Origin: Candidatus Nitronereus thalassa | GTDB lineage: Bacteria; Nitrospirota; Nitrospiria; Nitrospirales; UBA8639 | Length of the DNA: 64,000 bases | Assembly: GCF_032191465.1 (NCBI RefSeq) | Contig: NZ_JAQOUE010000002.1 | Location: 186,001 to 250,000 of the forward strand | Direction: 5' to 3' | Shown: positions 30,141-56,417 of the stretch, piece after piece | Position numbering within the stretch: the stretch's first letter is position 1 | Layout of the letters: each line of letters begins with the position of its first letter | The notes under the pieces: model-generated | The model's input: only the letters and a program-made list of their open reading frames with translations | The model's database searches: none | Told to the model about the DNA's origin: nothing | Program-made: the position numbers and the translations under genes

Positions 30141-30475
30141 AGATTTTCCACGGGGTTCAGTTTAGAAATGAGAAATTAGGAACATGTCTCGTGCATATCG
30201 TCTCAGAGTAGTATACCTGAATGGATTCTGGAATCAACCGGTGGAAAGGTATGGCAAGAGTCATATTTTCGCAAGAATTCTGGATGATCCTGTCACATCA
30301 GTAGGCGTTGATGGGTTTATCAATCTATCCAGATTATGCTAGTGTTTAAAGGTTTTGAGGTCTAGGCCTTTCCATTGAACATGTCAAGATAACAGACGCT
30401 ATCCTTAGAACACGACCAATTTCCATATTTTGAACAGCCAAGAGGCTTTTGGTTCCCGAGGCAGTCTATAGTAAT
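30141..30475. other. 335-nt divergent promoter region, secA / TonB locus
   Basis: The divergent starts of secA (30140) and the first TonB-domain gene (30476) lie on each side, so both promoters should be here. I do not see a Fur box or other known metal-regulator box with confidence. No RNA gene is apparent. Confidence 0.55.
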
Positions 30476-31072
30476 ATGATATATCCAAATTTTTGGCGGC
30501 TTTCTCAAACTGTTACAACCCTATGTTTCACATTAACCACCTTCGTCTTCGGCACTCCAGAAGTGCGGGGAGAAGACTACCCCGAGGAACCAGTGGCCAT
30601 ACTCGATACCATCGAAGTTCCAGCCACGTTTGTCATCCAAGAGGAACGAAAAATTTCGATCCCGCTTCCTGAAATGAACGACTTTACTCCCCTACCTATA
30701 GGACCTTTGGTGCAGGCGAGCCTGCCCCCCCCATCCACGGCGACTATGGATTCGGTCAAAGTGACTCGAGATCCCATTGCAGATATTAAAGGAAAACGAA
30801 CCCCAGTCCGGCCAGCCAAGGCTGAACGCCCACCCTATCCACAATTCGCCCGGGAACAAGGTTGGGAAGGCACCGTGATACTGAGAATTCGAGTTAACCA
30901 ACAAGGTTTGGTAGATTCTGTGCAAACTCAAAAAAGTTCTGGATTTCCGATTCTTGATGTCAGTGCTTTGCAATCCGTCAAATCCTGGAGGTTCGAACCT
31001 GCCAAGGACGGAGAATTTCTTCTCGCGGCCACCGTTGATCTTCCCATTCGCTTTGACCTTGATGAACCGTAA
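30476..31072 (+). CDS. TonB C-terminal domain protein, first copy
   Basis: A 198-aa protein with an N-terminal hydrophobic segment (about residues 8-30), ending in a sequence that looks signal-peptidase-cleavable (VRGEDY), then a middle region with some proline, and a TonB-C domain at the end: PPYPQFAREQGWEGTVILRI, SSGFPILDVSALQSVKSWRF. It is close in sequence to the C-terminus of the second TonB protein (32164-33105). The linker of about 90 residues is short. ATG 30476 is chosen because GAGG precedes it; a TTG 27 nt upstream is the alternative. Predicted to pass energy to an outer-membrane receptor, or to bind a receptor without the motor if it is cleaved. Confidence 0.8.
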   Translation: MIYPNFWRLSQTVTTLCFTLTTFVFGTPEVRGEDYPEEPVAILDTIEVPATFVIQEERKISIPLPEMNDFTPLPIGPLVQASLPPPSTATMDSVKVTRDPIADIKGKRTPVRPAKAERPPYPQFAREQGWEGTVILRIRVNQQGLVDSVQTQKSSGFPILDVSALQSVKSWRFEPAKDGEFLLAATVDLPIRFDLDEP

Positions 31073-31108
31073 CCCGTATTTTTCAATGACTCCATCACCT
31101 GAGGAATT

Positions 31109-32167
31109 ATGAGCCCACGATTACTTGTTTTTGACACTATTCGTATCGGTGTGTTTTCCCTCCTGCTCAGCCTTGGCAGTCCACTCCAATGCTGGGCTGA
31201 TCAGGCACAGGATTTGTACAATCAAGCCTTGTCTCATGTTCAACGGCAAGACTTTTCACAAGCCTCCCAAACCTTGCAACAAGCCCTCCAGGTTTTTCCT
31301 CGATTCGCCGCTGCCCACCATTTGTTGGGCGTCGTGCTGTTTAATGGATTGCATCAACCAGAAAAGGCGATTCAGCATTTAGAACATGCAGTAAACCTGC
31401 ACCCAAATTTTGCCCGCGCCTACCTCGACCTTGGTTTGGTGTATCAACATGCCGGCAATATGCCGAAAGCCAAGCAGGCCTTAGAAAAAGCCATGGAGAT
31501 CTATCCCCGCTATGCCGAGGCCCAACTCAATTTGGCGTTCGTGTTTGACCAAATGCATTCAACGGAAAAAGCCATTGAGGCCTATTTGGCCGCCCTGAAG
31601 CTGAACCCCAACCATCCCACGGCACTGTATAACCTGGCCACGTTGTATGATAGCCAAGGACATCCTGATCAGGCCAAACAATATTTGGAAAAATTGACCA
31701 AAATTGATCCAAACCATGCCAATGCCTGGTTAATACTTGCCCAATTGGCCGAAAAACAGAATCAAACGAACCAGGCCATTCAATCATACAAACGGGCCCT
31801 GCAGATCGATAATAATTTACTGGAAGCGCATTACGCCTTGGGATTTCTGTTGCAAGCCAAAGAACAATCACAACAAGCTGCGGAACATTTTCAACAAGTC
31901 ATCCGCCTTAATCCCAAACATGCTGAAGCCCACTTAAACCTTGGGGTTCTTTATGCAAATCTCAACAAACTCGACCAAGCCGAGCAGGAATATCAATCCG
32001 CGATTTCGCTGAACCCTCAACTCGTGGAAGCCTACTATAACCTCGGAGTTTTTTATGAGTTTTATCGGAAAGATACAGGGCGAGCATTGGCACAATACAA
32101 AAAATACGCTGAGCTTGGTGGAAAAGACGAACGGGTGGGCAACCTACTGAAAAAAACCGGTCAATGA
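31109..32167 (+). CDS. TPR-repeat protein with signal peptide
   Basis: A 352-aa exported protein: signal peptide (residues 8-30), then about nine tetratricopeptide repeats to the C-terminus, each with the pattern A-x-A-x-x-x-L-x-x-A-L-x-L-x-P (LYNLATLYDSQGHPDQAKQY, HLNLGVLYANLNKLDQAEQE). It should be a periplasmic scaffold. The ATG at 31109 has GAGGAATT upstream. The stop overlaps the next start as ATGA, so the gene is translationally coupled with the tonB gene. TPR proteins beside TonB systems are known in other bacteria; the partner here is not known. Confidence 0.9.
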   Translation: MSPRLLVFDTIRIGVFSLLLSLGSPLQCWADQAQDLYNQALSHVQRQDFSQASQTLQQALQVFPRFAAAHHLLGVVLFNGLHQPEKAIQHLEHAVNLHPNFARAYLDLGLVYQHAGNMPKAKQALEKAMEIYPRYAEAQLNLAFVFDQMHSTEKAIEAYLAALKLNPNHPTALYNLATLYDSQGHPDQAKQYLEKLTKIDPNHANAWLILAQLAEKQNQTNQAIQSYKRALQIDNNLLEAHYALGFLLQAKEQSQQAAEHFQQVIRLNPKHAEAHLNLGVLYANLNKLDQAEQEYQSAISLNPQLVEAYYNLGVFYEFYRKDTGRALAQYKKYAELGGKDERVGNLLKKTGQ

Positions 32168-33105
32168 GTTTTGCCTTTGCCGCCACGGCCCCCATGAAAT
32201 CGCTCTCTTCCGAACCACCATTTTTGCCCTTTTGGGCATGGTCGGGACTGCTCCATCTTGGAATCCTCGCTCTATTAAGCTTGACGCAAGTCACAAGCCA
32301 ACTCGAAAAGACACCGTCCGTGGTAAAGGTCACCTTAATTGAAGCCGCCACTCCCAGCACCGCCCCTTCAACAACCCAGAAAACAAAAAATAAGGAAGCA
32401 ACGCCTCAGCCACCGGCCATGTTGAAGGCGCAACGCTCGGTTTTACCAACTCCACCGCCGCCCCCAAAGGTTGCCAAACCTCTTACGACGCCAACGGCTC
32501 CTCTTACCATGGCTCAAGTCGCTGTCCCTCAGAATTCTCGGGAACGCGCCCAGCCGATAGAACGATCTCCGCTACGAGATTCCCGTGCGGATAACCAGGT
32601 GGAATTTAAAAACTTTTTAAAAGTAACTCAACGAATGCCAGTATCGCGCTCTTATTCCCTACCCACCACACCTGAACTCAATCCCTCCACTTCTGCCACG
32701 CAGATTCCAACCCACATCCCTTCTCCTCACATTGAGGCCATAACCACAAGAGACAGTCCGGAGTCCATTCGATCGGTCACACCAAATGTTCTCAAGGCCA
32801 TGGCACCAGGCGTTGGCACTATTGGCAAATCAAAGGTGGGTTTGGGACGCACCCTTCCCCCTGTCTATCCTCGGATTGCCCGAGAAGCCGGCTGGGAGGG
32901 CACCGTGGTTGTGCGCGTCGCTGTTCAACCAGATGGCCATCCCGAGAAGATAGAAATTCGTAAAAGCAGTGGATACCCAGTGCTCGATGAAGCTGCGGTA
33001 GAAGCCGTCAAAAAATGGCAATTCTCCCCGGCCAAAGATGGCAATATCCCCATTCGCAGCATTGTGGAAATCCCCATCAATTTCGACTTGAGAAAACAAG
33101 GTTAA
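32164..33105 (+). CDS. tonB: energy transducer TonB
   Basis: A 313-aa TonB with a typical plan: N-terminal membrane helix (about residues 22-42, PFWAWSGLLHLGILALLSL), a long Pro/Ser/Thr-rich periplasmic linker (about 50-230, including PPPPPKVAKPLTTP), and a TonB-C domain from about 235 (PPVYPRIAREAGWEGTVVVR, SSGYPVLDEAAVEAVKKWQF). It carries proton-motive energy from ExbBD to outer-membrane receptors. The start overlaps the TPR stop, and exbB follows in 28 nt. Confidence 0.92.
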   Translation: MSFAFAATAPMKSLSSEPPFLPFWAWSGLLHLGILALLSLTQVTSQLEKTPSVVKVTLIEAATPSTAPSTTQKTKNKEATPQPPAMLKAQRSVLPTPPPPPKVAKPLTTPTAPLTMAQVAVPQNSRERAQPIERSPLRDSRADNQVEFKNFLKVTQRMPVSRSYSLPTTPELNPSTSATQIPTHIPSPHIEAITTRDSPESIRSVTPNVLKAMAPGVGTIGKSKVGLGRTLPPVYPRIAREAGWEGTVVVRVAVQPDGHPEKIEIRKSSGYPVLDEAAVEAVKKWQFSPAKDGNIPIRSIVEIPINFDLRKQG

Positions 33106-33133
33106 TCAACATATTCACCAAGGATACACGCCA

Positions 33134-33775
33134 ATGATACAAATGTTTATGGCCGGCGGATGGATGATGATCCCTATTGTCATCAGCTCGCTCGTGGCCG
33201 TCGCCATCGTCTTAGAACGAGGATGGTGGTTTTACCACATGCCACCCAACGACCATGCCGATCGTCTGATCAACCTTGTGACCCAAGGGAAGTTGACCGA
33301 TGCCCTTGCCTTCAATGATCGCGAGCCACATTTCATGCTCCGCGTTTTAAAAGCTGGACTTCAAGCCAGAACCGCCGCTCCGGAAAAAGCCATGGAGGCG
33401 GCAGCCATTGCTGAACTCTCCCGAATGAAACGCGGGATGCCAGCTCTGGATACGATCATTACCCTCGCCCCCCTTCTCGGACTTCTAGGAACGATTATTG
33501 GAATGATCGATTCATTTGGAGTAATGGCAGATCAAGGGATAGGCCAACCTCATGCCGTAACCGGAGGAGTGGCCGAAGCCTTAATTTGCACCGCAGCAGG
33601 CATTTTTGTCGCCGTGATTGCCTTGGTCCCCTACAACTACTTTCAAGCCAGGATTGAACAATACACTGAACTTATTGAATATTACGCCACTCGCCTGGAG
33701 TCGGCATTACAAGAAACACTGGAGAAAACCCCGCGTGAGACTCCCAGCCGTCCCAAAAAAGAAAGCCCGAATTGA
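33134..33775 (+). CDS. exbB: ExbB/MotA/TolQ family proton channel subunit
   Basis: A 213-aa inner-membrane protein with three helices (about residues 8-28, 110-135, 155-178) and the conserved LAPLLGLLGTIIGMI and GVAEALICTAAGIFVAVIAL segments of the ExbB/TolQ family. It forms the pentameric proton channel that energises TonB. It has a short N-terminal periplasmic part and a charged C-terminal tail. ATG 33134 follows TGGTT-free sequence with weak ribosome site GGATACACGCCA. The gene overlaps exbD by 41 nt. Confidence 0.93.
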   Translation: MIQMFMAGGWMMIPIVISSLVAVAIVLERGWWFYHMPPNDHADRLINLVTQGKLTDALAFNDREPHFMLRVLKAGLQARTAAPEKAMEAAAIAELSRMKRGMPALDTIITLAPLLGLLGTIIGMIDSFGVMADQGIGQPHAVTGGVAEALICTAAGIFVAVIALVPYNYFQARIEQYTELIEYYATRLESALQETLEKTPRETPSRPKKESPN

Positions 33776-34139
33776 GATCATCCCCATGATCGACACCATG
33801 TTCTTTTTATTGGTGTTTTTCATGATCGCCACACTTTCAATGACCTTACAAAAAGGGATGCCGGTCAATCTTCCCACCGCTGGCTCAGCCACCGATGATG
33901 TACCGGAGCAGGTCTCGCTGACACTCACGAAAAAAGGGGAATTGTTCTTTAACAAAGAGCCGATCGTGATCCAGGAACTTGAATCCCGTTTACAAAGTTT
34001 GTTAGATACAAGTGAACCATCGGTCGTTATCAATGCTGACACCGCGGTTCCTCACGGACGCGTCATTGAAGTGATGGATGCGATCCGAAAAACGGGAATC
34101 TCCAATATGGCGATTGCAACAAAACCACTTTCCCCCTGA
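33735..34139 (+). CDS. exbD: ExbD/TolR family protein
   Basis: A 134-aa protein from a GTG start at 33735, which has GGAGAAAA at the right distance upstream. The N-terminus (RLPAVPKKKARIEIIPMIDT) leads into one membrane helix, with the key Asp of the proton path in PMIDTMFFLLVFFMIA, followed by the periplasmic ExbD domain (SLTLTKKGELFFNKEPIV, VVINADTAVPHGRVIEVMDA). A longer open frame upstream is only exbB in another phase. The overlap of 41 nt with exbB indicates co-translation. Together with ExbB and TonB it forms the energy module for the receptor at 39.06 kb. Confidence 0.92.
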   Translation: MRLPAVPKKKARIEIIPMIDTMFFLLVFFMIATLSMTLQKGMPVNLPTAGSATDDVPEQVSLTLTKKGELFFNKEPIVIQELESRLQSLLDTSEPSVVINADTAVPHGRVIEVMDAIRKTGISNMAIATKPLSP

Positions 34140-34149
34140 CAATTACTCG

Positions 34150-34482
34150 ATGATTCCTTTCCCCAAAACAAAAACAGCCTTAACCGCAACGGCCTCCTTG
34201 GTCGGCGGGATCTATCTTGTTTTGGTCATTGCGTCTCTATTTTGCGCAACAACCCATGCCTCAAATCATAGTCATACCAGTAACCACTCTCCTCTTTGTG
34301 CTTGGGCTTGTCAGACTAATAATTCCGAAACTTATGCTTCTGTCAATTCATCGGTACGTCCTCTCTTGTTAGCCATTTCGCTTTCTTCATTCACCTTTAT
34401 TCCAACGCCATCTACCCACCGAATTCAACTCTCCTCTCGCGGTCCTCCTATGATCAATTTGTTCCCAACGTTCAAAGTCTAA
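34150..34482 (+). CDS. His/Cys-rich two-helix membrane protein 1 (DUF2946-like)
   Basis: A 110-aa protein that starts 11 nt after exbD. Membrane segment about residues 13-33; a periplasmic loop with HASNHSHTSNHSPLCAWACQ; a second helix about 70-86; and a C-terminal SSRGPP. Three further proteins in the window (34891-35208, 38594-38965, 56055-56417) share this plan: one helix, a His-rich loop with Cys, one helix, and R-x-P-P. I assign it to the DUF2946-like family, whose members often sit beside copper-type TonB receptors in other bacteria. The His and Cys residues make metal binding likely; direct evidence is absent. Confidence 0.68.
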   Translation: MIPFPKTKTALTATASLVGGIYLVLVIASLFCATTHASNHSHTSNHSPLCAWACQTNNSETYASVNSSVRPLLLAISLSSFTFIPTPSTHRIQLSSRGPPMINLFPTFKV

Positions 34483-34610
34483 GTAGGTTGTGCCCCTGGG
34501 CATCACAGAATGGTGTACCTGGGCTAATTCAACCTCCTGACATAACGGGACGTCTTGCATTGGCATCCCCATGTCAAATCATTTTTGGGAATTTTTAAGG
34601 AGAGACCATC

Positions 34611-34814
34611 ATGACACAGCCCCTTTTACGCGTCAGTGAAGCTGCCGAAGCCTTAAATGTCAGCCGATGGACCATTTATCGATGGATTGATGAAGGACGC
34701 CTGGAGGCGACGAAAATTGGCAGAGGTAGCCTTCGAGTGTTTGGCTCATCGGTCCAGGCCTTAGTTGAAGGCAATCGCAAAGAACGGATGTGGCTGGAAC
34801 CAACAACCGTATAA
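34611..34814 (+). CDS. excisionase/MerR-type helix-turn-helix protein
   Basis: A 67-aa protein of the HTH_17/excisionase type: LLRVSEAAEALNVSRWTIYR then WIDEGRLEATKIGRGSLRVF. It has a strong AAGGAGAG ribosome site. Such single-domain proteins act as transcription regulators or recombination cofactors. No integrase is nearby, so a regulatory role is more likely; it sits inside the TonB locus between two His-rich membrane protein genes. Confidence 0.82.
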   Translation: MTQPLLRVSEAAEALNVSRWTIYRWIDEGRLEATKIGRGSLRVFGSSVQALVEGNRKERMWLEPTTV

Positions 34815-34890
34815 AATTTTTCGCAAATTGTTGCACCGGCAAGTAACTGTTTGTAGACAGCCTTGCCTTAAAGGCTTACATTTTAGGCCT

Positions 34891-35208
34891 ATGATTTCCG
34901 GGAAAAATCAGAAAATACTTGGGGTTGGGTTAGCGTTTTGCTTTTTCTTCGTGAGCAGTCTGCTGACCACTGCAATCGCCAAGCACGCCACCCATGTCGG
35001 CCATGATCACAGCACCCATCAACAAACTTGGTGTGGTTGGTTGTGTGCCGCAGGAAAAGCGATTCAAACCCCATCACTTGAACCAGACCCGACCTTTTCG
35101 TTTTTAGCAAACACCGAACCTTTTCTTCTTTTGCGCACCCTAGTTCTCTTCTCCAAAGCCCCACCATCACGAGCTCCGCCCATCCCTTTTTCTAAGATTT
35201 CCCACTAA
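34891..35208 (+). CDS. His/Cys-rich two-helix membrane protein 2 (DUF2946-like)
   Basis: A 105-aa protein with the plan of the other DUF2946-like proteins here. A first helix (about residues 9-29), the loop HATHVGHDHSTHQQTWCGWL followed by CAAG, a second hydrophobic segment (about 68-82), and PPSRAPP near the C-terminus. ATG 34891 is chosen over an in-frame upstream start because it begins the hydrophobic segment; an inverted repeat AGGC-TTACATTTTA-GCCT stands directly upstream. The Cys pair is CxxxC. Function is inferred only from its shared plan and context. Confidence 0.62.
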   Translation: MISGKNQKILGVGLAFCFFFVSSLLTTAIAKHATHVGHDHSTHQQTWCGWLCAAGKAIQTPSLEPDPTFSFLANTEPFLLLRTLVLFSKAPPSRAPPIPFSKISH

Positions 35209-35523
35209 TCAAAACATGAAACAACAACCAGCGTATTAGGTTGTTGAGTCAAAACCTCGTGAATGTTTTCACCCTAGGAAAATCGCTTCCTGTTTTCCAG
35301 GATGCAAGGCATCCGATCTGAGCGAATACTAGGTTGTTCTCCTAATAAAGAACTTCACGATGCTTTGAGTCATGAGGAATATCGGGTTCCCAACACACCT
35401 TGGCATGCCATTCAAAAACCGTTTTAAGGGAATAATGATATAAAAGTTTACTCGAATACATGCTTATATCCAGCCCTTCCAGCCTTTGCGCTTATTTTCT
35501 TTTTCATTGCCGCCAATACATCT

Positions 35524-36189
35524 TTGGCACAATCGGCATCCGAAAAAGTTTTTGCCCTACACTTGAGAACACAACCCTTCAGTTCCATCATGTGTAGAAA
35601 AATTCGACCAGACGAAAACATCCAGGTCAGAATCGCTCGCCACCGAGATTTGGTTTTGCGAAAAGTGACAAACCAATTTATTCCCCCTCAATTTGAGGAT
35701 GCTCGAAAAAAATCCTATGTACATGAACTGACTCTTCAAGATTTAACCAATGGAGTCATTCACAAAGGAGCTATTGCCTTTAACACCAACCATGCGGTCA
35801 TTTTTTCTGATTCCCACCCTCGAGGGATTTCCCGTGAGGAATTCCTGTCCCAATTACCTCCGGGAATACGTTCCATTGCCCAGCAAGCACTGGACACATT
35901 CCTCCGATTGCACCCTATTTTGAATGCCGCGGTTGATGGATGTCGTCCCTATCCCAGTCAAGTCACTTATGGCACAGATGATGAATTCGATAAAATTGAA
36001 ATGGGCAGAATAACCTATCGTGATCTGGCGAATCAGTTTAACAATACGCCTAATCCTTCCAGCCCCCTGATTAGACACACAAACGGAAAATCTGGTGGGT
36101 ACTACGATCCTCGGACCGAAGGCAAACAAGTCAGTTATCATGCCATCAACCCGCTAAATTTCTTCGAAGCCGGATCAGTAAATCCATGA
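35524..36189 (+). CDS. secreted hypothetical protein, start codon unclear
   Basis: From TTG 35524 the product has 221 residues. The same reading frame continues upstream without a stop to 35428 and encodes CLYPALPAFALIFFFIAANT followed by SLAQ, a clear signal peptide, but no ATG, GTG or TTG precedes it. An ATG at 35435 (ATGATATAA) is in another frame and stops at once; ATA at 35440 sits after an AAGGG site. A one-base sequence difference or an unusual start would restore a normal secreted protein of about 240 aa. The mature part has no family I know; it has KSYVHELTLQDLTNGVIHKG and a Cys in DGCRPYP. Confidence 0.62.
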   Translation: MAQSASEKVFALHLRTQPFSSIMCRKIRPDENIQVRIARHRDLVLRKVTNQFIPPQFEDARKKSYVHELTLQDLTNGVIHKGAIAFNTNHAVIFSDSHPRGISREEFLSQLPPGIRSIAQQALDTFLRLHPILNAAVDGCRPYPSQVTYGTDDEFDKIEMGRITYRDLANQFNNTPNPSSPLIRHTNGKSGGYYDPRTEGKQVSYHAINPLNFFEAGSVNP

Positions 36190-36590
36190 TTTCACCTTCA
36201 CCAAAGATTTTATATCTTTTGATTGGCCTGGATAGATAATTGGAAAAAACAAAGTCCTACGCATTAAGCGACGGTTTACCCAAGTGAATCGGAATCTTGT
36301 TCTACCAAAATTTTTGTTTCCAAGGTTTAGGCTCTCCTCCTGACCTTGGATTTGGGAGTGGGAAAGCTCGATTGTTGCAACCTCCCGAGCTTTCCCCCTA
36401 CCCCCCATTAATTTGCAAACTTGCCATTTCGGTCTGCTTCAAGAGCAGGAAGGATTTTATAAATAAAACTGTTGCAAGGGGTAGCATCTGTTGGCAAGCT
36501 CCCGTAGACAGTCCAAAACCACAATCTCTATTTTATGTTGGTAGAGTCTTTGGAATACCGGTTGTTCATCCTACAAAATAGAGTGAGTAT
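36190..36590. other. 401-nt intergenic region with an inverted repeat
   Basis: Upstream of the beta-propeller gene. A perfect 11-bp inverted repeat, GGGAAAGCTCG (36360-36370) and CGAGCTTTCCC (36386-36396), encloses a 15-nt loop; no T run follows, so it is not a standard terminator. An open frame of 94 codons at 36297-36581 crosses it, with no ribosome site. The region probably contains the promoter of the propeller gene and possibly a leader structure. Confidence 0.5.
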
Positions 36591-37862
36591 ATGATCCTGC
36601 TCTCAAAAACATTCCTATTGTTCCTTGTACCTTGGTTGATCGTTAATCTCATTTCACCGTCCCCTGGCCTGTCATCGTCTCCCCAAATTCCTGGCCTGGA
36701 GTTTGGCATACCATTGAATCTTAATCATGGCTCCAAACGTATATCTGGACCGGCATTGAAAATTGACAACCAAGGAACACTACATCTGGCATGGTTTGAA
36801 GCAGGGAAAGCTCGCAACGAAATTTTTTACGCAACAGCGCCCCATCAAGCCATGGGCGTTACTCTGCCCATTCATGTCAACAAAGACGGGGATCCCGTAT
36901 CTTCACTCCATCAACCTCCTGCTCTCGCATTGGGACCAGATCAATCGGTGTATATCACCTGGTCAACACCCCATCCCCAAGGAAAAAGCAATCCATTTGC
37001 GAGCCTTCTAAAGGCAAGTCGCTGGGCCCCTGCCATAGGCACGTTTACCCCTCCAGTCACCGTAAATGATGATGCAGCCCCAACCAGTCATAGCTTTGAC
37101 AATCTCTGTGTCAGCCCATCAGGCACGCTTCATGTGTCTTGGATCGACGAACGGCTGGGGCATGGACAACCCAAAACGATGACCACACGATCGGACACGA
37201 AGGGATTGAGTTTTAAAAAAAACCTCGCACTGGAGGGAATGACCTGTGTCTGTTGTCGAACCGCAATGACCACAGCTCCAGACGGGACAATTTATGTTTC
37301 CTGGCGACAGACTCTTGAGGGCAACGTGAGAGAAACCGTGGTGGCTCGTTCAACGGATAACGGGCGTTCCTATTCATCGCCCGTTATCGTGGGTCACGAC
37401 CAATGGGTTTTTCCTGCATGTCCGCATCGACCATCCTCGATAGGGGTCGACGGTCAAGGAAGACTGTATGTGGTTTGGTATACCGAAGGCCCTGATGAAA
37501 CACCGGGGATCTATTTCGCAATGTCTGACAATCAAGGACAAACCTTTTCACCACGTCGTATGCTTAATCGTTCAAAAGGCACTTTTCCGGATAAGCCACA
37601 TATGGCCGTAGATCCACAAGGACGAATCCTCGTGGTGTGGGAAGAACTCTCGCCGGTTCGACATGAGGTATTTCTGAGTTATTCGGAAGATCGAGGAAAC
37701 ACGTTCACGACCCCTCAACGCCTGAATCAAGCCAAAGGAGAGGGGCCAGTCGTCAGCCTCAATACTCGAGGCCAAGGGAGCATTGCTTGGAACGAACATG
37801 CCTTTCCCAATAATGTGTTGATTGTACAACCCGTCACGATATCGACCCCTCACTCACACTAA
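36591..37862 (+). CDS. exported beta-propeller (sialidase/BNR-like) with CxCC motif
   Basis: A 423-aa protein with a signal peptide (residues 5-22) and a series of BNR/Asp-box-like blades (STDNGRSYSSPVIV near 254, SDNQGQTFSPRRM, SEDRGNTFTTPQRL), so a six-bladed propeller of the sialidase-like fold. It has a CVCC cluster at residues 219-222 (MTCVCCRTA) and a CPH at 277-279 (FPACPHRP), two conserved-looking sites that ordinary sialidases lack. I see no FRIP or Arg-triad catalytic pattern of a true sialidase. The cysteine arrangement suggests metal or heme-copper-related binding. It is followed after 6 nt by a TlpA-type thioredoxin gene, so the two are probably co-expressed. Confidence 0.75.
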   Translation: MILLSKTFLLFLVPWLIVNLISPSPGLSSSPQIPGLEFGIPLNLNHGSKRISGPALKIDNQGTLHLAWFEAGKARNEIFYATAPHQAMGVTLPIHVNKDGDPVSSLHQPPALALGPDQSVYITWSTPHPQGKSNPFASLLKASRWAPAIGTFTPPVTVNDDAAPTSHSFDNLCVSPSGTLHVSWIDERLGHGQPKTMTTRSDTKGLSFKKNLALEGMTCVCCRTAMTTAPDGTIYVSWRQTLEGNVRETVVARSTDNGRSYSSPVIVGHDQWVFPACPHRPSSIGVDGQGRLYVVWYTEGPDETPGIYFAMSDNQGQTFSPRRMLNRSKGTFPDKPHMAVDPQGRILVVWEELSPVRHEVFLSYSEDRGNTFTTPQRLNQAKGEGPVVSLNTRGQGSIAWNEHAFPNNVLIVQPVTISTPHSH

Positions 37863-37868
37863 ACCGTA

Positions 37869-38426
37869 ATGCTCCAGGTCATCGTTTTCCTCCTCTTCGG
37901 GTTGCCCATACCACTCCTACCCCATACGGTCTCCGGGCATTCGGTTTGGGCAAATGATACGTTGTCTTCCCTACAAATAGTTCCCCCCATTCCTCCAGCC
38001 CAAGCCCCGCACTTCCGCATTGTAACCCTTGAGGGAATACCCGTGGATTCTCAGCAACTGTTGGGGAAAGTCGTCCTTTTAAATTTTTGGGCAACCTGGT
38101 GTGGACCGTGCAAAGAAGAAATGCCTGCTCTAAATCGACTGCAAGAACATTTCCCGCGAGACAAGTTTAAAATTCTGGCTGTCACTACAGATATTCAGCC
38201 CAAGGCCATTCAGGCCTTTTGGAACCTCCTTCACTTGAACATGGAAGTTCTGCTCGATGAAACCCAAGAAGTGTCTCAACAATTTTTTGTTCGGGGATTA
38301 CCCACGACCATCTTGATTGGAAGCGATGGAACCATTCTTGGCCGGGCTATGGGCCCGCGAGACTGGGACAGCCAGGACGCCATCGCGTTTATCCGAACTT
38401 TGGTAAACCCTGAGTCCATTGAATGA
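37869..38426 (+). CDS. TlpA-family thiol-disulfide oxidoreductase
   Basis: A 185-aa exported thioredoxin with a signal peptide (hydrophobic residues 1-20) and active site WCGPC at 77-81 in LNFWATWCGPCKEEM, the TlpA/ResA pattern, plus GLPTTILIGSDGTILG at about 141. TlpA proteins keep periplasmic cysteine pairs reduced, in copper centre or cytochrome c maturation. The gene begins 6 nt after the CxCC propeller gene, which is a likely client. Confidence 0.9.
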   Translation: MLQVIVFLLFGLPIPLLPHTVSGHSVWANDTLSSLQIVPPIPPAQAPHFRIVTLEGIPVDSQQLLGKVVLLNFWATWCGPCKEEMPALNRLQEHFPRDKFKILAVTTDIQPKAIQAFWNLLHLNMEVLLDETQEVSQQFFVRGLPTTILIGSDGTILGRAMGPRDWDSQDAIAFIRTLVNPESIE

Positions 38427-38593
38427 ATTTTGAATCCGGAAAAGATTTGCTAATCGTCGAAAAACCTAATTTTTATGGAGGCATAGATCAGGACTAAACA
38501 GAATCAGTGAGGAACTGCGAAACTGAGAGACTCTTGCTTCACGTAATTTACACAAATCTCCAAGCATGCGCCCTTACGTTAATTAGGTTCAGC

Positions 38594-38965
38594 ATGGACT
38601 CTTATTCAATGATGCGTATACCTAGTAAGACCGTGATGACACCTCGTATGAAATTTTTGGTGCGACATTTCACGCTGTTTTTGGTCATTCTCTATCTTGG
38701 GCTCGCCAGCGTTTCAACTTATTGTACGGTCAACCATTTCAACCCACATGCAGCTTCACACCAACATAAAAATACATCTCATTCCCACTCACCGTTATGT
38801 TTTTGGGCCTGTCAGGTAAGCGCACAGCCTTCAAACACCCAGCCTGCCTCGCCTCAACTCCTGCTGGTCCTCTTCATAGTCGGTGTTTTGGTTGCCCCTT
38901 TTCTCTTTTACCCAATCTTGTCACCCAACTTTTTTAGGGCTCGCCCGCCTCCCTTAGATTTTTAG
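38594..38965 (+). CDS. His/Cys-rich two-helix membrane protein 3 (DUF2946-like)
   Basis: A 123-aa protein from ATG 38594 (starts at 38609 or 38648 are also possible). First helix about residues 25-45, loop with HAASHQHKNTSHSHSPLCFW followed by ACQ, second helix about 90-110, and ending FRARPPP. It is closest to protein 1 (SHSPLCFWACQ against NHSPLCAWACQ). It ends 93 nt before the TonB-dependent receptor gene, so it is probably the receptor's partner. Confidence 0.66.
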   Translation: MDSYSMMRIPSKTVMTPRMKFLVRHFTLFLVILYLGLASVSTYCTVNHFNPHAASHQHKNTSHSHSPLCFWACQVSAQPSNTQPASPQLLLVLFIVGVLVAPFLFYPILSPNFFRARPPPLDF

Positions 38966-39058
38966 TTTTCATTCAATCGTTTTTCTTCAACAGCATTGCT
39001 TCCTAGGCAATCTTTGGCTGCACCCAAGATTTGCGTCTCCATAAGAAAGGAACTTTCT

Positions 39059-41281
39059 ATGTACCAGGGCCTACCTTGCACTCATTTCAAATTTTATCGG
39101 TCTATGATCGTTATCATGTGGTTTTCCCTATTTGGACTTTCTCCAACATTTGCTGATACCCCTCCAACGACTATCACCGACACTGACATTGAAACTCTTC
39201 CCACATATTTAGTAGAGGGCAAAAAAATCGAAAATATTGACATCATCAAAGAAGAACTTTCGCGTCGGCCTGCGAGCACGGCGTTGATTGAAGAAAAAGA
39301 GATTAAACAATCACGCGGTTTGAACTTGAATGATGTGTTGCAGTTCGTTCCGGGAGTCCGGTTTCAATCCCGCTTTGGTGCAGACGAGGGCCAATTTCAA
39401 ATTCGAGGCACTTCCCTACGGAACAATTTTCATCATCGAGGAATTACGATCTTAATCAACGGTATTCCGTTCGGAGATGCCGATGGATTTTCCGACTTTG
39501 AATCTATCGAATTGCTGGCCTATGAACGAATCGAAGTGTACAAAGGAACCAATGCCTTAAGGTATGGCGCCAACACCATTGGTGGAGCCATCAATTTCGT
39601 GCCACGGACGGGATATAATGCTTCGATGTTGCAAGTGCGTGCCCAAGGTGGAAGCTTTGGGTTGTATATGGGCCAAGTTTCTAGTGGCCGTGTTTCCAAA
39701 CCTATGAAGCTTGGCTTCATGGATGTCATTGCCGACTACTATATTAGCGTCTCCGGAAATCATCAGGACGGCTTCCAGGATCACAGCCAACAAGACCGGC
39801 AGCGGCTCAATGCAAATTTCGGATTTAAGCTTGGCACCCACCAAGAAATTCGGGCATATCTCTTAGGCGGCAACGTGGCTGAACGGATTCCTGGTTCCCT
39901 CACACTGGGACAAATGGAGGCCAATCCTCAACAGTCCAGTTCTTTGGGTGGAATCAGCCTGTTTGCTTGTGTCCCCAACCAGGTCTGTAACTATGGGCGA
40001 TTTTACAACCTGTGGCGAGCAGGTGTGGCTTATCGAAATGAATTTTCTCCTCAACAATTTATCGAAATCATACCTTTTTATTCTTATCAATACCTCGATC
40101 ACCCGATTTTTCAAACGATCGTTCAGGATAATCATAACGTCGGTGCGGAACTTCGGTATCATAATTCGAAGCCGCTCTTTGGGCATGACAATGCATTTCT
40201 TATCGGACATCAGCCTCGTTACGGCGATCAACACCAACGCCGATTCAGCAATGTTCTTGGCAATCGCGGGCCACAGACGCAGAACTTGAATACCAGAACC
40301 ACCAATTTTGGAACCTACATTGAAAACCAATTTAACATATCAGATGGGTTGGTCCTGATTATTGGGGGGAGATGGGATTATAGTGTTCGGCAAGCCCGCA
40401 ACGAATTAATCAGTCCATTTTCCGGGCTCGTGACGAGTAGCAGAAGTGACCTTCGACAATTCAATGCGATTACGCCAAAGGCGGGGGTTGTCTATCACAC
40501 GTCGTCGACTTCTCAAATTTTTGGAAATATCAGCCGTGGCTACGAACCGCCTCTCAATTTAGAGTTGACCTCAGCAATAAATCCAGATGGCTCGACACCG
40601 ACATCAGCGTTTCTTTCCTTGGACGCTCAGCGTGCCTGGCAATTCGAAATCGGTACGCGGGGCACAACCGCTAACCAGCGATTTTCGTGGGACTTCACGG
40701 TGTATAATTTAGAAATGGAAAAGGAAATTTTGGCTTCTGTTATTGGAGGCACGAGCACCTTTCAAAATGCGAATGGGACTCGTCATACCGGCATTGAGGC
40801 AGGCGGAAGCCTTCTTGTCCTCACAGGCCTCCTGGCCCCTGGCACACCAGCCCAACAGGATCGACTGATTGTTCGGACCGCTTATACATGGTCGTTGTTT
40901 CAATTTACCGATGATGTGTTTGGAGGGAGTACGCTTATTGCGGCTGATGGGAATCGCGTCCCTGGCGCTCCGGAACATAATCTGGCTGGAGAATTACGTT
41001 ATGATCACCCAAGTGGATTCTGGATTGCCCCGAATTTTGAATGGTCAATCAAAGGATTCCATGTGGATAATCTCAATACCGTGAAAAATCCAGCCTATTT
41101 TGTTGTCCACATGAAAGGTGGATATAATATCCGCAAAAATCTCGTAATTTTTGCCGAAGGCCGGAATCTGACGAATCAAACTTATGCCGGGGCAGTAGTG
41201 GTGAACGATAATATGGGAAGATTCTTTAATCCGGCTCCAGGAATCAGTGGATTTGCGGGAATGGAATGGACGTTTAATTAG
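39059..41281 (+). CDS. TonB-dependent outer-membrane receptor 1
   Basis: A 740-aa outer-membrane receptor. It has a signal peptide (about residues 14-32, ending FADT), a TonB-box-like ETLPTYLVEG near 44-53, a plug domain (LNLNDVLQFVPGVRFQSRFG, QFQIRGTSLRNNFHHRGITI, ERIEVYKGTNALRYGANTIG, GGAINFVPRTG) and a beta-barrel to the C-terminal aromatic residue (MEWTFN). ATG 39059 follows AAAGGAAC. The substrate is not read from sequence; context points to a metal or metal complex. It follows the third DUF2946-like gene and precedes a cytochrome c gene. Confidence 0.93.
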   Translation: MYQGLPCTHFKFYRSMIVIMWFSLFGLSPTFADTPPTTITDTDIETLPTYLVEGKKIENIDIIKEELSRRPASTALIEEKEIKQSRGLNLNDVLQFVPGVRFQSRFGADEGQFQIRGTSLRNNFHHRGITILINGIPFGDADGFSDFESIELLAYERIEVYKGTNALRYGANTIGGAINFVPRTGYNASMLQVRAQGGSFGLYMGQVSSGRVSKPMKLGFMDVIADYYISVSGNHQDGFQDHSQQDRQRLNANFGFKLGTHQEIRAYLLGGNVAERIPGSLTLGQMEANPQQSSSLGGISLFACVPNQVCNYGRFYNLWRAGVAYRNEFSPQQFIEIIPFYSYQYLDHPIFQTIVQDNHNVGAELRYHNSKPLFGHDNAFLIGHQPRYGDQHQRRFSNVLGNRGPQTQNLNTRTTNFGTYIENQFNISDGLVLIIGGRWDYSVRQARNELISPFSGLVTSSRSDLRQFNAITPKAGVVYHTSSTSQIFGNISRGYEPPLNLELTSAINPDGSTPTSAFLSLDAQRAWQFEIGTRGTTANQRFSWDFTVYNLEMEKEILASVIGGTSTFQNANGTRHTGIEAGGSLLVLTGLLAPGTPAQQDRLIVRTAYTWSLFQFTDDVFGGSTLIAADGNRVPGAPEHNLAGELRYDHPSGFWIAPNFEWSIKGFHVDNLNTVKNPAYFVVHMKGGYNIRKNLVIFAEGRNLTNQTYAGAVVVNDNMGRFFNPAPGISGFAGMEWTFN

Positions 41282-41614
41282 CAAGAAAGCACCGATTATC
41301 TATGGGGGAATAGATACTATTTATTATTTTCGGAATGACTCTCCTGATGGCATCGTAAGAAAAATAATATTCCCTTCTGGGAAGGGTTAAAAACATACAT
41401 CGAGGACGGATTTTTTACCAAAAGAAGCCGTCCTCGTCCAACCACAATTCACCGTTCATTTTGAACTTCCTACCAAATTTCTTTCATCTGGAAATACCAG
41501 ACGTCATAATGGAAGCAACAAATTCAGCTGAATTCTAGCTTTCGAATGGGAAAGGGTGCATAATAAAAAGTATTGTAGCCTTTATCCACATCATGGACTG
41601 CAGTTGACTAAAAA
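41282..41614. other. 333-nt intergenic region with 9-bp inverted repeat
   Basis: An inverted repeat CGAGGACGG (41401-41409) and CCGTCCTCG (41428-41436) with an 18-nt A/T-rich loop may end the receptor transcript, though no T run follows it on the plus strand; leftward it is followed by TTTTT. No gene seen. Confidence 0.5.
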
Positions 41615-42211
41615 ATGAAAAAACTTCTTGGCATTGGAGCGGTTGCAGTCTTGGGTTTGATCTTAGTTGTGACTTGGCTGTTACCCGGAGCCTTTAGCGC
41701 GAAGGGGAAACCGCCGGAATGGGAAGTCACCATGGCCCGTTTTGCACGCCACCTGGCAACACCAAGTCAATGGCGAGATGCGAAAAACCCTGTAGAAGCT
41801 TCCGCGGAAAACTTAGAAGAGGCACTTCACCATTTTGCCGATCACTGTGCGTCCTGCCATGCGAATGATGGAAGCGGGAAGACCGAAATGGGGCCAAATT
41901 TTTATCCGCCCGTCCCTGATCTCCGCACAGAACCCATTCAATCGATGTCGGATGGAGAATTATTTTATGTGATTCACTTTGGTGTGCGGTTTACCGGCAT
42001 GCCGGCTTGGGGAAGTGGGGATCCGGAGAAAGATATGGGAAGTTGGGCCTTGGTCCATTTCATTCGACATCTACCAAATATTACTCCAGAAGAAATTTCA
42101 CAAATGAAAGAATTAAATCCGAAGACCGCACAGGAACGGGCTGAACAGGAAGCTATGGACGCCTTCTTAGCTGGTGAGGATTTTGTCCCACCATCAGAAC
42201 ATCATCATTAA
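41615..42211 (+). CDS. membrane-anchored c-type cytochrome
   Basis: A 198-aa protein with an N-terminal membrane segment (about residues 4-26) that has no clear cleavage site, and one heme motif CASCH (78-82). The distal Met ligand is probably in RFTGMPAWG (near 126). The C-terminus is charged and ends in HHH. It faces the periplasm and should transfer electrons. The gene is followed after 16 nt by the small His-containing gene. Confidence 0.88.
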   Translation: MKKLLGIGAVAVLGLILVVTWLLPGAFSAKGKPPEWEVTMARFARHLATPSQWRDAKNPVEASAENLEEALHHFADHCASCHANDGSGKTEMGPNFYPPVPDLRTEPIQSMSDGELFYVIHFGVRFTGMPAWGSGDPEKDMGSWALVHFIRHLPNITPEEISQMKELNPKTAQERAEQEAMDAFLAGEDFVPPSEHHH

Positions 42212-42227
42212 ATCAAAAGGAAATGTT

Positions 42228-42539
42228 ATGAAACGATTACTTGCCCTCACCATCCTTCTGTTGCTTCTATCCGCTCCTCTTTTTGTGGGCGCCCATGGGA
42301 ACGCCTCTCACGTCCTCGGCACGGTCACAGAAACGACACAAGATCAGATTACAGTGAAAACACCCAAAGGAAAAGTCGTCACGATACACATCAGCCCTGA
42401 CACCATTTTTCAACACAATGGCATCACCACGAACGACGCACGTCCTCAAGTCGGGAATCGGTTAATTGCAGAGGCGGCAAAGATTGATGACAAATTAGTC
42501 GCCATCGAAATTAAATTTTCTTCACCGAAGTCTAAATAA
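42228..42539 (+). CDS. small exported protein, DUF5666-like
   Basis: A 103-aa protein with a signal peptide (residues 1-22, FVGA) followed by HGNASHVLGTVTETTQDQITV and a short beta-barrel-like C-terminal part. The G-T-V-x-x-x-x-x-x-x-I-x-V pattern resembles DUF5666/OB-like small secreted proteins, some of which are found with copper and nickel genes. Two histidines stand at the N-terminus of the mature protein. ATG 42228 has an AAAAGGAA site; it is probably in one operon with the cytochrome. Confidence 0.65.
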   Translation: MKRLLALTILLLLLSAPLFVGAHGNASHVLGTVTETTQDQITVKTPKGKVVTIHISPDTIFQHNGITTNDARPQVGNRLIAEAAKIDDKLVAIEIKFSSPKSK

Positions 42540-53035: not shown

Positions 53036-53476
53036 TTATTTTGTTCGGAAGTGAATTCGCACCGTCAGCTCACCATCCACAAAATCATCACCATCCATTT
53101 GCGGATCAAAGGTCCATTGCTTAAGGGCATGGAGCCCCTCGAGATTCAATTGACGGTGTTTGGCCGGTTGTAAAACTACAACAGTTGTCTCTGCCGTCTT
53201 ACTCACCAAAATTCTGATTTTCATCCAGTCGTCGATTTCTTTTCCATTTAAGGAAGGCGGCATAGTGGGCCAGGGGGTATATTTTGGTACAGGACCAAGT
53301 TGTTGATCTTTATTGAGCTTGAATCCGTGTACATGAACGGTTTCAAGCACTTCCACATCTTCGTCTTCTAAGTGGTCTGCTTCATGAGTCGATCGATCGG
53401 ATTGGGCCTGCACAACCATGGGCACACTCATCAAGGACAGGCATGCGATTCCTATTGGGACCCAAACGTCTCTCAT
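53036..53476 (-). CDS. exported TonB-C-like protein
   Basis: A 146-aa protein from ATG 53476 (longer frame to 53563 is not supported) with a signal peptide (residues 5-24, ending VQAQ-SD) and an acidic, His-containing stretch (HEADHLEDEDVEVLETVHVHG). The C-terminus (IRILVSKTAETTVVVLQPAK, LNLEGLHALKQWTFDPQMDG) resembles a TonB C-terminal domain but lacks the membrane anchor. It starts 14 nt downstream of the receptor end, so the two genes are in one operon. It might bind or assist the receptor. Confidence 0.65.
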   Translation of the reverse strand: MRDVWVPIGIACLSLMSVPMVVQAQSDRSTHEADHLEDEDVEVLETVHVHGFKLNKDQQLGPVPKYTPWPTMPPSLNGKEIDDWMKIRILVSKTAETTVVVLQPAKHRQLNLEGLHALKQWTFDPQMDGDDFVDGELTVRIHFRTK

Positions 53477-53489
53477 TGGAAAACTCCCT

Positions 53490-55925
53490 TCATGAATCAA
53501 AAAACCATTGTGTTCTGAAGAAAAATGAGCGCGGCATATTCGCATGCGAGACCCCAAGACCAATACTCTGCTCCCCGATATTTAACAATTCTTGTTGATC
53601 GAATACATTGATCATATCAAAACCAAACAACAGCCTCTGCTTACCGGATAATGGAAGAACGTGAGTAAGAGAGAGATTATACGTCGTCACCGAATCAGCG
53701 CTCTGGGAATTGGTTTTCTCACCGGCTGATGCTGTCCGCAAACCAGAGCCAAACAACATTTGCCCGGATACGGTCGTATGCTCCAGTAGTCGATAGGTCA
53801 GAATGGCCGAACTCGTGACTTCTTGCATATGATCACAAAACACTCCTTCGCTCGTTTCAATATCATTAATCTCCTGCTGCTCCAGGAGGAAATGTCCCGA
53901 CTGAAGCCCCTGTCCTTTACATTGCCCCCAAGCGACATTTCCTCGTGCCGAAAGATTGTCCGTGAGTTTCACTTTGATACTGCCTTCGATCCCCCGCTGC
54001 CAACCATTTTTAAAGGCAAAGAAGTTCAGCAACGGCGTGGTGCCAAATTGCCCGGCATCGGATAAATTCTTACTGAGTTTATAATAGCCCGTCAGTTGTA
54101 CCACGGCAATTTGGCCAAACGCATGCGTGGATCCCACCTCAAAATAATGTGACCGCTCCGGCTTGACCGTATTATTCGTCAAATTCTCAGGTTCGGCAGT
54201 GGTGCCAACCGTATTAAGTTGGACAAACCTGATTGCTTCCAGATTCGGCGGAGTAAACAACCGACCATAGAACGCATGAAAGGCATGGTTGTTCGTGGCT
54301 TTAAACGTCGCACCGACTCGTGGGCTGATTTGGGCGGCCTCGATAAATCCGTGAATATTATCCACCCGGACACCAAGATTAAACGTCCATTGATCATTAG
54401 GCGTATATTGATCCTGCACCCAAAATTCTTCCCGATAGCCAATCAACCGACTATCCGCCCGACGCATCAAGACACTCCCCATTGGGGCTCCACCCACACG
54501 ATTGAAGGCGAATAATTCCGTCTTGTTGACCGCCTGCGTTCGATCAAATTGAAACCCAGCTTTAACAAGGTGCTCGCTATTCAAGACATTCGTATAGTCC
54601 AATCGCACCCCGTTGGAATAGGCAAATCGATCCTGATCGCCAGCAGAGAATGGCTCGTCCGTATCGCCAGTATAGGCCAAGACATTTAAAGGATCAGTTT
54701 CAAACGTGGCTCGTGTATGACGCAAATATCCAGCTAGACTAAAGAATTGACTAGCATTGACATCATGTCGCCACACCAAATGGGCATACTGGTTAGTCTC
54801 TTTTTGGGATTCATCAATGTCTTGTGAAATTACTGGGTTAAACCCAGGATTGTTCGCCTGGATCAACCCAACGATTGTTCCATTGGCTATTTGATTGGGC
54901 GTATTGGGAATTTGAAACTTCGCAATCGAGTTCAGAAATAACAGCGTAAAGTTATTGTTATTGTTAAGTTGATAATCGCCACGTATGAAAGTCTGATTTC
55001 TGTCACTTTCGTTATGAAAACCTGAATCACCTAACGTCGGTGGATCAATCCCACGACTCGTTGTGGTATAACTGTTTAATACGTAATACCGAAACTTGTC
55101 TCCTGCCGTCCCACCATATTCGAATGAAGGTATCACGGTTTCATTCGACCCCCCAAACAATTGAATAGATCCAAATCCTGGCTTGGTTCCGCTTTTGCTC
55201 GTAATATCAATGACCGCAGCTGTTCGATTGCCAAACTGTGCTTCCATCCCACCGAGAATAATATCTGCCCGTTCCCAGGCACGGGGGGAAATCACATCCG
55301 TGAAGGTGGAAGAAACCGTATCCGGAATCGGCACACCGTCGATCCGTACCTGAAAATTTGCATGATCCTGGCGAATGTGAACTTGCTTGAGGCTCCCGTT
55401 CACCGCACCGGGAATAGTCAACAATGCATCATTGAATTCAATGTTACTCCCAAACGGCAGGGCCTCGATTTCCGTTCGACTCAGTGAGTAGGTTTCGCTG
55501 GACGACTTAGGTTGAATTGGGAGTAAGGGAGCCACTACTTCCAACGCAATTTCTTGTGTAACAGTCATCGTCAACACGACTGGACCTACCTCCTCATTAC
55601 CAACTTCGACAATCTTATATTCGCTTCGATACGTCTCTTGAATCGCCCGTATAGAAAATACTCCAGTTCCTGGAGCAACCAAAATAAACTCTCCGGCATC
55701 ATCAGTTGACTCGGATGTGACCAGTGCGCCCTCCTGATCTCGCAATTCCACTGTGGCTTGAGCCACACGCCGCAAATCCACATTTTGCACATGCCCTGCA
55801 ATCTTTTGCCCTCCTGAAACAGCATACGAATCCTCCAAAAATCCAAATATAAACGTAAAGGCCAAACCCAAGAACAACCATTTCAGATGGTTAGTTTTTT
55901 TTAAATCTTTATCAAGATATGACAT
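53490..55925 (-). CDS. TonB-dependent outer-membrane receptor 2
   Basis: An 811-aa receptor with a signal peptide, an N-terminal carboxypeptidase-regulatory-like domain (about 38-120, KIAGHVQNVDLRRVAQATVE, GEFILVAPGTGVFSIRAIQE), a plug domain (GSNIEFNDALLTIPGAVNGS, HANFQVRIDGVPIPDTVSST) and a C-terminal barrel ending FFFRTQWFFDS. The regulatory-like domain makes it different from receptor 1. ATG 55925 is preceded by GAGGGGCT. A DUF2946-like gene lies upstream and a TonB-C-like gene downstream. Confidence 0.92.
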   Translation of the reverse strand: MSYLDKDLKKTNHLKWLFLGLAFTFIFGFLEDSYAVSGGQKIAGHVQNVDLRRVAQATVELRDQEGALVTSESTDDAGEFILVAPGTGVFSIRAIQETYRSEYKIVEVGNEEVGPVVLTMTVTQEIALEVVAPLLPIQPKSSSETYSLSRTEIEALPFGSNIEFNDALLTIPGAVNGSLKQVHIRQDHANFQVRIDGVPIPDTVSSTFTDVISPRAWERADIILGGMEAQFGNRTAAVIDITSKSGTKPGFGSIQLFGGSNETVIPSFEYGGTAGDKFRYYVLNSYTTTSRGIDPPTLGDSGFHNESDRNQTFIRGDYQLNNNNNFTLLFLNSIAKFQIPNTPNQIANGTIVGLIQANNPGFNPVISQDIDESQKETNQYAHLVWRHDVNASQFFSLAGYLRHTRATFETDPLNVLAYTGDTDEPFSAGDQDRFAYSNGVRLDYTNVLNSEHLVKAGFQFDRTQAVNKTELFAFNRVGGAPMGSVLMRRADSRLIGYREEFWVQDQYTPNDQWTFNLGVRVDNIHGFIEAAQISPRVGATFKATNNHAFHAFYGRLFTPPNLEAIRFVQLNTVGTTAEPENLTNNTVKPERSHYFEVGSTHAFGQIAVVQLTGYYKLSKNLSDAGQFGTTPLLNFFAFKNGWQRGIEGSIKVKLTDNLSARGNVAWGQCKGQGLQSGHFLLEQQEINDIETSEGVFCDHMQEVTSSAILTYRLLEHTTVSGQMLFGSGLRTASAGEKTNSQSADSVTTYNLSLTHVLPLSGKQRLLFGFDMINVFDQQELLNIGEQSIGLGVSHANMPRSFFFRTQWFFDS

Positions 55926-56054: not shown

Positions 56055-56417
56055 CTAGAGGAAAAGAGGAGGACCGCGGGATTCTTGGGAAGTGAGGGCT
56101 TTCGAAGAAAAAACAATTTCTGACGTATGCCATTGTTCATGTTCGACCTGAAGCGGGATTCCAAGATTTCCATGATCGAGATCAACGGACCCACTCCCAT
56201 GGGCTTGCACCCATTGGCAGAGGTCAAAATCTGAATGCTCATGACCATCATGATCCACTTCCGCAAAAATATGGTGAACTTCTAGAGCACTCGCAAAAGG
56301 AAGAAGACAGAGGACCAGCAGAACGACCGTGGCCGCAACCGTGGCTTGAGAACGAGGTGAAAAATTGAATGATCGGAAACGGGCTATCATATGAGGCAAC
56401 CTTAGCAACACCATCAA
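56055..56417 (-). CDS. His-rich membrane protein 4 (DUF2946-like)
   Basis: A 120-aa protein with the shared plan: hydrophobic helix about residues 27-45 (ATVAATVVLLVLCLLPFASA), a His-rich loop HHIFAEVDHDGHEHSDFDLC, then a Cys-less continuation QWVQAHG, and a C-terminal SQESRGPP. Only one Cys is kept in the LCxW motif. The start at 56417 or ATG 56390 is not decided. It is transcribed toward receptor 2 from 130 nt upstream, like proteins 1-3 near receptor 1. Confidence 0.66.
   Translation of the reverse strand: MMVLLRLPHMIARFRSFNFSPRSQATVAATVVLLVLCLLPFASALEVHHIFAEVDHDGHEHSDFDLCQWVQAHGSGSVDLDHGNLGIPLQVEHEQWHTSEIVFSSKALTSQESRGPPLFL

Follow-up and report, generated by a model that had tools for sequence, protein, structure and literature searches.

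Candidate nascent-chain metal sensors placed in series along a TonB-energised import locus of Candidatus Nitronereus thalassa

The window analysed here, 64,000 nucleotides (nt) of Candidatus Nitronereus thalassa (contig NZ_JAQOUE010000002.1, positions 186,001 to 250,000 of the forward strand), contains a TonB-energised locus at 30476-42539, interspersed with three small open reading frames (ORFs) that are candidate upstream ORFs (uORFs) encoding arrest peptides of a copper (Cu) type. All genes of the locus lie on the + strand, in the order given below, and Pfam searches bore out the gene content proposed earlier from the letters alone (hereafter the sequence-only reading). For each uORF the Cys motif, its spacing to the C-terminal R-x-P-P and the residues left before the stop codon are listed.

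30476..31072, + strand: TonB-domain protein 1 (PF03544, E 3.3e-21)
31109..32167, + strand: secreted TPR protein (TPR families, E to 4e-50)
32164..33105, + strand: TonB-domain protein 2 (PF03544, E 4.4e-26)
33134..33775, + strand: ExbB (PF01618, MotA_ExbB, E 8.5e-32)
33735..34139, + strand: ExbD (PF02472, E 5.8e-32); GTG start assigned by comparison with relatives, longest frame beginning at 33618
34150..34482, + strand: uORF III, Cu-type arrest-peptide candidate (HSPLCAWACQ, 42 residues, RGPP, 10 residues to stop)
34611..34814, + strand: small excisionase-like HTH_17 protein (PF12728, E 9.6e-13)
34891..35208, + strand: uORF IV, Cu-type arrest-peptide candidate (TWCGWLCAAGKA, 41 residues, RAPP, 8 residues to stop)
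35524..36189, + strand: U221, conserved secreted protein; frame open from 35428, no obvious start codon
36591..37862, + strand: beta-propeller (BNR-like in Pfam) with invariant CxCCR and CPHR
37869..38426, + strand: TlpA/ResA-type thiol oxidoreductase (redoxin; Pfam)
38594..38965, + strand: uORF V, Cu-type arrest-peptide candidate (SPLCFWACQ, 43 residues, RPPP, 3 residues to stop)
39059..41281, + strand: TonB-dependent receptor (PF00593 and PF07715, plug and barrel)
41615..42211, + strand: cytochrome c, cbb3-type, with His-rich C-terminus (Pfam; same neighbours in relatives)
42228..42539, + strand: DUF5666-like secreted protein (PF18914, E 1.8e-5, just under cut-off)

The three small ORFs share one layout, consisting of an N-terminal hydrophobic stretch that resembles an export signal, His residues, a C-x-W-x-C motif and R-[A/G/P]-P-P within a few residues of the stop codon. 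In Bordetella pertussis, the nascent chain of CruR (DUF2946) senses copper via CXXC and arrests at RAPP (PMC9426467), an arrest since confirmed in vitro (PMC12992588); copper makes Rho terminate transcription ahead of the receptor gene, and the 45-residue distance from Cys to RAPP is important (PMC9426467). The window uORFs possess the RAPP-type C-terminus of this CruR/DUF2946 class, whereas its CXXC about 45 residues before RAPP is replaced in them by CX3C (C-x-W-x-C) at 41-43 residues (41-44 in relatives). The sequence-only reading had seen here three DUF2946-like membrane proteins handling metal. Three His/Cys-rich ORFs do exist; only two of them reach DUF2946, both below the curated cut-off (18.7 and 15.1 vs 23.7 bits), and 13 of 27 relatives and window members match PF11162 (DUF2946) at E ≤ 1 (best 3.9e-5). 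Their identity is decided by the shared C-terminal R-x-P-P motif, which that reading missed and which points to cis-acting nascent-chain regulators; stable membrane proteins find no support, the N-terminus reading instead as export-signal-like.

Conservation of the family was followed in related genomes only, so that the counts below describe one conserved family and not independent events. An alignment of 32 members leaves C, C, R, P and P as the only invariant residues. Among ORFs of 60-300 amino acids in the wide loci of relatives and the window, 47 carry R[AG]PP near the stop, vs one with A[AG]PP and at most two with any other residue at the Arg position. The same holds for 76 loci found via the propeller in named genomes (all Nitrospira or Nitrospirales by title, one labelled Nitrosospira), in which 190 such ORFs end in R[AG]PP, 9 end in A[AG]PP, and no other residue at this position exceeds 16. 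In 181 of 188 distinct R[AG]PP ORFs from these 76 loci, CX3C lies 41 (87), 42 (84) or 44 (10) residues before the Arg, with Trp in its middle in 174 of the 181; since the search pattern allowed 38-48, spacings of 38-40, 43 and 45-48 are truly missing from that set. A larger collection of 297 non-redundant uORFs, searched over spacings of 40-45, gave 144 at 41, 130 at 42, one at 43 and 22 at 44. At R-A/G-P-P, Arg appears in each of its six codons and Pro, Ala and Gly in every synonymous form, and this free synonymous variation at conserved residues indicates that it is the protein that is conserved. The ratio of non-synonymous to synonymous substitution rates (median 0.18; 999 of 999 pairs below 1) agrees, although the pairs were chosen at >55% identity, which lowers the value, and are not independent. 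uORF III, starting 11 nt past the exbD stop, is matched in its own genome at E 5e-23 by a family profile that includes its sequence. This profile was found in 110 of 296 genomes of a phylum-wide sample, all belonging to the class of the window, and in none of the other classes at E 1e-4. The RPPP ending of uORF V recurs in distant relatives.

The relatives, by name Nitrospirales metagenome-assembled genomes (NPIRA, OFTM, UBA8639) and Nitrospira spp., conserve the gene order of the locus, as the sequence-only reading had asked to be looked at. In them, uORFs stand before nearly every segment, including TonB1-TPR-TonB2-ExbB, the receptor or an amidohydrolase-receptor pair, the unknown protein and a second receptor; one also follows ExbD. 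Examples of uORF frames in Nitrospira moscoviensis and Nitrospira defluvii are FP929003.1 599692-600240 and 603161-603628 and NZ_CP011801.1 523953-524285 and 527282-527629. Several genomes hold four or five uORFs in one locus of 20 kb; the window locus has three, and the first uORF of relatives, before TonB1, was not found in window 30140-30480. Across the 76 loci, a uORF lies within 400 nt upstream of 55 of 83 receptors vs 72 of 523 other genes, and the uORFs fall into two subclasses divided by target gene: of 94 with spacing 42 or 44, 55 stand before a receptor, whereas none of the 87 with spacing 41 does, their targets being porin, TonB, propeller or TlpA genes. In the window, uORF V directly precedes the receptor at 39059..41281. 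Location before copper-homeostasis or TonB-dependent receptor genes is thus shared with the CruR class. In locus L208 a uORF of the CxWMC class is followed by CopC (E 2e-20) and CopD (E 4e-17; Pfam), and the same gene order in L212 suggests CopC-CopD behind the uORF there too. Because one and the same CxWMC class heads CopC-CopD, copper is the likeliest metal, in support of the TonB-energised metal-import locus, with copper as first candidate, that had been proposed. The TlpA-type thiol carriers and the invariant CxCC and CPHR of the propeller fit the handling of a thiophilic metal, without proving it. The whole genome, 4.0 Mb in two contigs, encodes six receptors and three ExbD genes in total, so that the energising set of the locus may be dedicated.

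At the RNA level, the last 150 nt of the uORFs show a C>G bias of +0.152, vs -0.001 in 274 control gene ends, which persists at four-fold sites (+0.094 vs 0). The bias is strong and of the kind expected for Rho, which the genome encodes, and it would fit Rho-dependent termination.

Taken together, we put at roughly 65% the probability that this is a copper-starvation-induced, TonB-energised uptake locus punctuated by three CruR-type arrest-peptide uORFs, probably acting through Rho. Each uORF would be translated first, and the ribosome would stall when R-[A/G/P]-P-P enters the peptidyl-transferase centre, at which moment the His/C-x-W-x-C region, 41-43 residues nearer the N-terminus (41-44 in relatives), would have reached roughly the mouth of the exit tunnel or a point just beyond it. 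At low copper, the stalled ribosome would shield the C-rich uORF end from Rho, so that RNA polymerase reads on into the HTH, U221, propeller and TlpA genes behind uORFs III and IV, and into the receptor gene behind uORF V. Binding of copper to the nascent motif would release the stall; with the ribosome gone, Rho would end transcription before the import genes, and relays in series would give a multiplied shut-off.

The closest described system is CruR-CrtA of B. pertussis (bp2923-bfrG-bp2921; PMC9426467, PMC12914433), with which the window uORFs share a short exported ORF, a Cys-pair ligand, RAPP-type residues near the stop, a spacing of ~41-45, a C>G region and the position before a TonB-dependent receptor, TonB/ExbBD being sometimes in the operon. 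They differ from it in having C-x-W-x-C and a His cluster instead of CXXC, R[AGP]PP endings and three to five copies per locus; moreover, the window locus lacks PepSY_TM and its receptor is not supported as a CrtA type. CutF of Rhodobacter capsulatus (PMC9973294) is likewise an exported DUF2946-family protein with CxxxC, a Pro-rich C-terminal motif and a spacing of ~45 residues, but there copper favours expression of a detoxifying oxidase via a stem-loop, unlike the import genes and R[AG]PP of the window class. The arrest peptides ApdA, ApdP and the Streptomyces set (PMC12992588, PMC10951233) share the C-terminal RAPP/RGPP on small secretory ORFs upstream of regulated genes. RAPP/RGPP is depleted in proteomes and enriched at the C-termini of small secreted ORFs before TonB- or copper-related genes (PMC12992588), and such TonB- and Cu-related uORFs are reported as widespread (PMC12992588, PMC10951233). 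This kind of regulator is therefore already known; in what we read of those two papers, neither copper or zinc classes of Nitrospirota nor a 41/42/44 ruler nor a serial arrangement is described.

The nearest solved relative of the receptor is PqqU (YncD; PMC12124388), with E 2e-35 over plug and barrel, and the protein groups with none of the siderophore, heme or B12 receptors; as the gene order is conserved too, neither observation named as refuting by the sequence-only reading was made. OprC-, BtuB- and heme-type assignments were rejected, scores being far below cut-offs (for the OprC-type model TIGR01778, only 23.7 bits vs a cut-off of 472). PqqU identity was rejected as well: the PqqU NCBIfam model gives 176 bits vs a cut-off of 1200, and where PqqU has aromatic 99, R304 and R365, the window receptor has F, F and Q in a phmmer alignment, read from its printed form with position 365 uncertain by one residue, so that the PQQ (pyrroloquinoline quinone)-contacting R304 and R365 are not conserved. 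Against CrtA (9RVQ) only the plug matches (E 6e-8), the H358 region of CrtA falling outside the alignment. Of the His residues in the receptor family, a single one is well conserved (98 of 108 members), at residue 650 of the window receptor, and it is no obvious candidate for a ligand site. Judged by these comparisons, membership of neither CrtA nor PqqU is supported, and the protein is best called an uncharacterised receptor. An organic cofactor such as PQQ, a siderophore-type chelate or another metal could be imagined as cargo, with the uORFs sensing that metal or the redox state. The kinship to PqqU, a paralogous receptor in the relative L042 that matches PqqU at E 5e-75, the TlpA thiol partner, which together with the Cys pair could sense redox, and the siderophore-receptor association of a variant uORF described below all lean this way. 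The substitution of R304/R365 by F/Q (N/T in the relative), the presence of C-x-W-x-C uORFs before CopC-CopD and the association of zinc-linked genes with a different sensor motif argue otherwise, and we regard a cargo other than copper as unlikely.

Slightly less probable still is that the same arrest-peptide uORFs act on translation, the stalled ribosome melting a hairpin that hides the ribosome-binding site of the next gene in the manner of SecM or CutF, with the metal logic reversed or not. CutF, with its CxxxC and Pro-rich end, is itself proposed to act through a stem-loop, and downstream of window uORF IV the gap is more stably folded than its shuffled versions (z -3.2). Nevertheless, the gaps after 120 uORFs are no more structured than control operon gaps (folding z -1.12 vs -0.91, p 0.09), and a conserved intergenic hairpin was rejected, its folding not exceeding the control; the strong C>G bias is what Rho would lead one to expect, and metal should repress import genes, not induce them. 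Finally, metal-binding membrane or periplasmic proteins passing the metal on, as first proposed, would account for the His and Cys motifs, the hydrophobic N-terminus and the location among import genes, but would leave unexplained an extreme C-terminal R-[AG]-P-P at fixed distance from the Cys motif, the freedom of all but C, C, R, P and P in 32 sequences and the presence of as many as five divergent copies in one locus, each heading a gene of its own, and are very improbable.

Several points weigh against nascent-chain copper sensing through Rho. No window uORF reaches the curated cut-off of the DUF2946 profile; CruR has CXXC where the window has CX3C, and in CutF, a relative with CX3C, copper has the opposite effect. 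uORF V ends in RPPP, and in ApdA an Ala-to-Pro change in the motif is only partly permissive. The C>G bias could stem from composition effects other than Rho, and the folding of the gaps neither supports nor excludes a hairpin mechanism. uORF III follows exbD and heads no obvious promoter, and the receptor appears to lack a copper-receptor signature. Stalling, copper as the ligand, its releasing effect, Rho as effector, the direction of import and the logic of the series are all steps that we infer.

Further observations concern related uORFs. Tandem double uORFs (C-x-x-A-C followed by C-x-W-[MI]-C) stand directly before porin, lipoprotein and TlpA genes in L206, L209, L210 and L211. The genome of Ca. 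N. thalassa holds one more Cu-type uORF at C1:240713-240991 (L055; CSWMC...RGPP), in front of genes for two proteins, one Met/His-rich and outer-membrane-like, the other secreted and bearing C-x2-H-x2-M. Variant uORFs combining V/I-x-W-A-C with RGPP occur in L057 (5345-7612), L073 (1116) and L219 (8857-9264): the first is followed by a siderophore-type receptor, scoring above the TIGR01783 cut-off, together with PepSY_TM, the second precedes a 411-residue protein resembling the L057 PepSY_TM by eye, and the third precedes a receptor-PepSY pair. These variants are possible iron sensors.

As for the remaining genes, U221 matched no Pfam family and is kept in six named relatives at 43-49% identity; with its relatives (window 35428-36189) it has two invariant Cys, and its predicted model, of low confidence (predicted local distance difference test, pLDDT, 66), gave no structural or fold match. 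The propeller has no close solved relative by sequence, but its AlphaFold2 model (pLDDT 85.8) shows a clear sialidase/lectin-type fold; the best 80 hits of this family in a scan of 84,980 species genomes all carry Nitrospira- or Nitrospirales-type titles. In L011 (8-1363), L012, L013 and L015-L017, the receptor ortholog or its uORF is immediately preceded by an amidohydrolase gene that is absent from the window. The cytochrome c and DUF5666-like genes may form a separate unit.

A fourth uORF lies elsewhere in the window, on the opposite strand, at the head of a second receptor:

56055..56414, - strand: zinc (Zn)-type arrest-peptide uORF candidate (HDGHEHSDFDLCQWVQAH, 42 residues, RGPP, 3 residues to stop)
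53490..55925, - strand: second TonB-dependent receptor, headed by the Zn-type uORF (PF00593, E 1e-22)
53036..53563, - strand: small TonB_C-like protein after the second receptor (PF03544, 18 bits, below cut-off; kept beside the receptor in relatives)

This uORF (HEHSDFDLCQWVQAH...RGPP) keeps the spacing of 42 seen in the Cu type, with Gln replacing the second Cys (C-x-W-V-Q). Of 247 genomes sampled from the class, 187 contain a match to the Zn-type profile, and 15 of 20 Zn-type loci examined head the same receptor type as the window. Zinc-uptake genes do stand behind it in relatives: it heads ZnuA/ZnuB-like genes in L265 and L272 and, in L211 (scanned with Pfam together with L221), ZnuA (E 3e-60) and ABC-3 (E 2e-35), while L266 and L273 have it flanked by a Fur-family gene on one side and a COG0523 GTPase gene on the other. 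Because of these neighbours, a zinc-responsive arrest peptide is likely at 56055-56414. No description of such a peptide was found in open-licence literature, and a plasmid search for the Zn-type uORF returned none; the CutF paper suspected that some relatives of CutF serve nickel or cobalt (PMC9973294).

As far as the literature consulted goes, the Nitrospirota C-x-W-x-C class, several relays in one uptake locus, two subclasses by target and the Zn-type class are apparently new. For the class of the window as a whole we offer, tentatively and at a little under even odds, one nascent-chain chassis (export signal, His cluster, metal motif, 41/42/44 ruler and R[AGP]PP) retooled per metal, with C-x-W-x-C for copper, C-x-W-[VL]-[QD]-H for zinc, which would be the first zinc-responsive arrest peptide, and perhaps x-x-W-A-C for siderophore-type receptors; its relays would be serial in single uptake loci and would replace or supplement metalloregulators class-wide. 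Small DUF2946-like "membrane proteins" annotated beside receptors would then be regulators. The proposal opens to test the metal-triggered release of arrest on the nascent chain, the cause of the 41-44 residue distance and the existence of a zinc nascent-chain switch. Little is known of how nitrite-oxidising Nitrospira control the acquisition of copper and zinc; if this reading is true, one bacterial class runs the import of both metals by ribosome stalling, with several stalls per locus, and a few swaps of ligand residues on a fixed ruler would change the metal.

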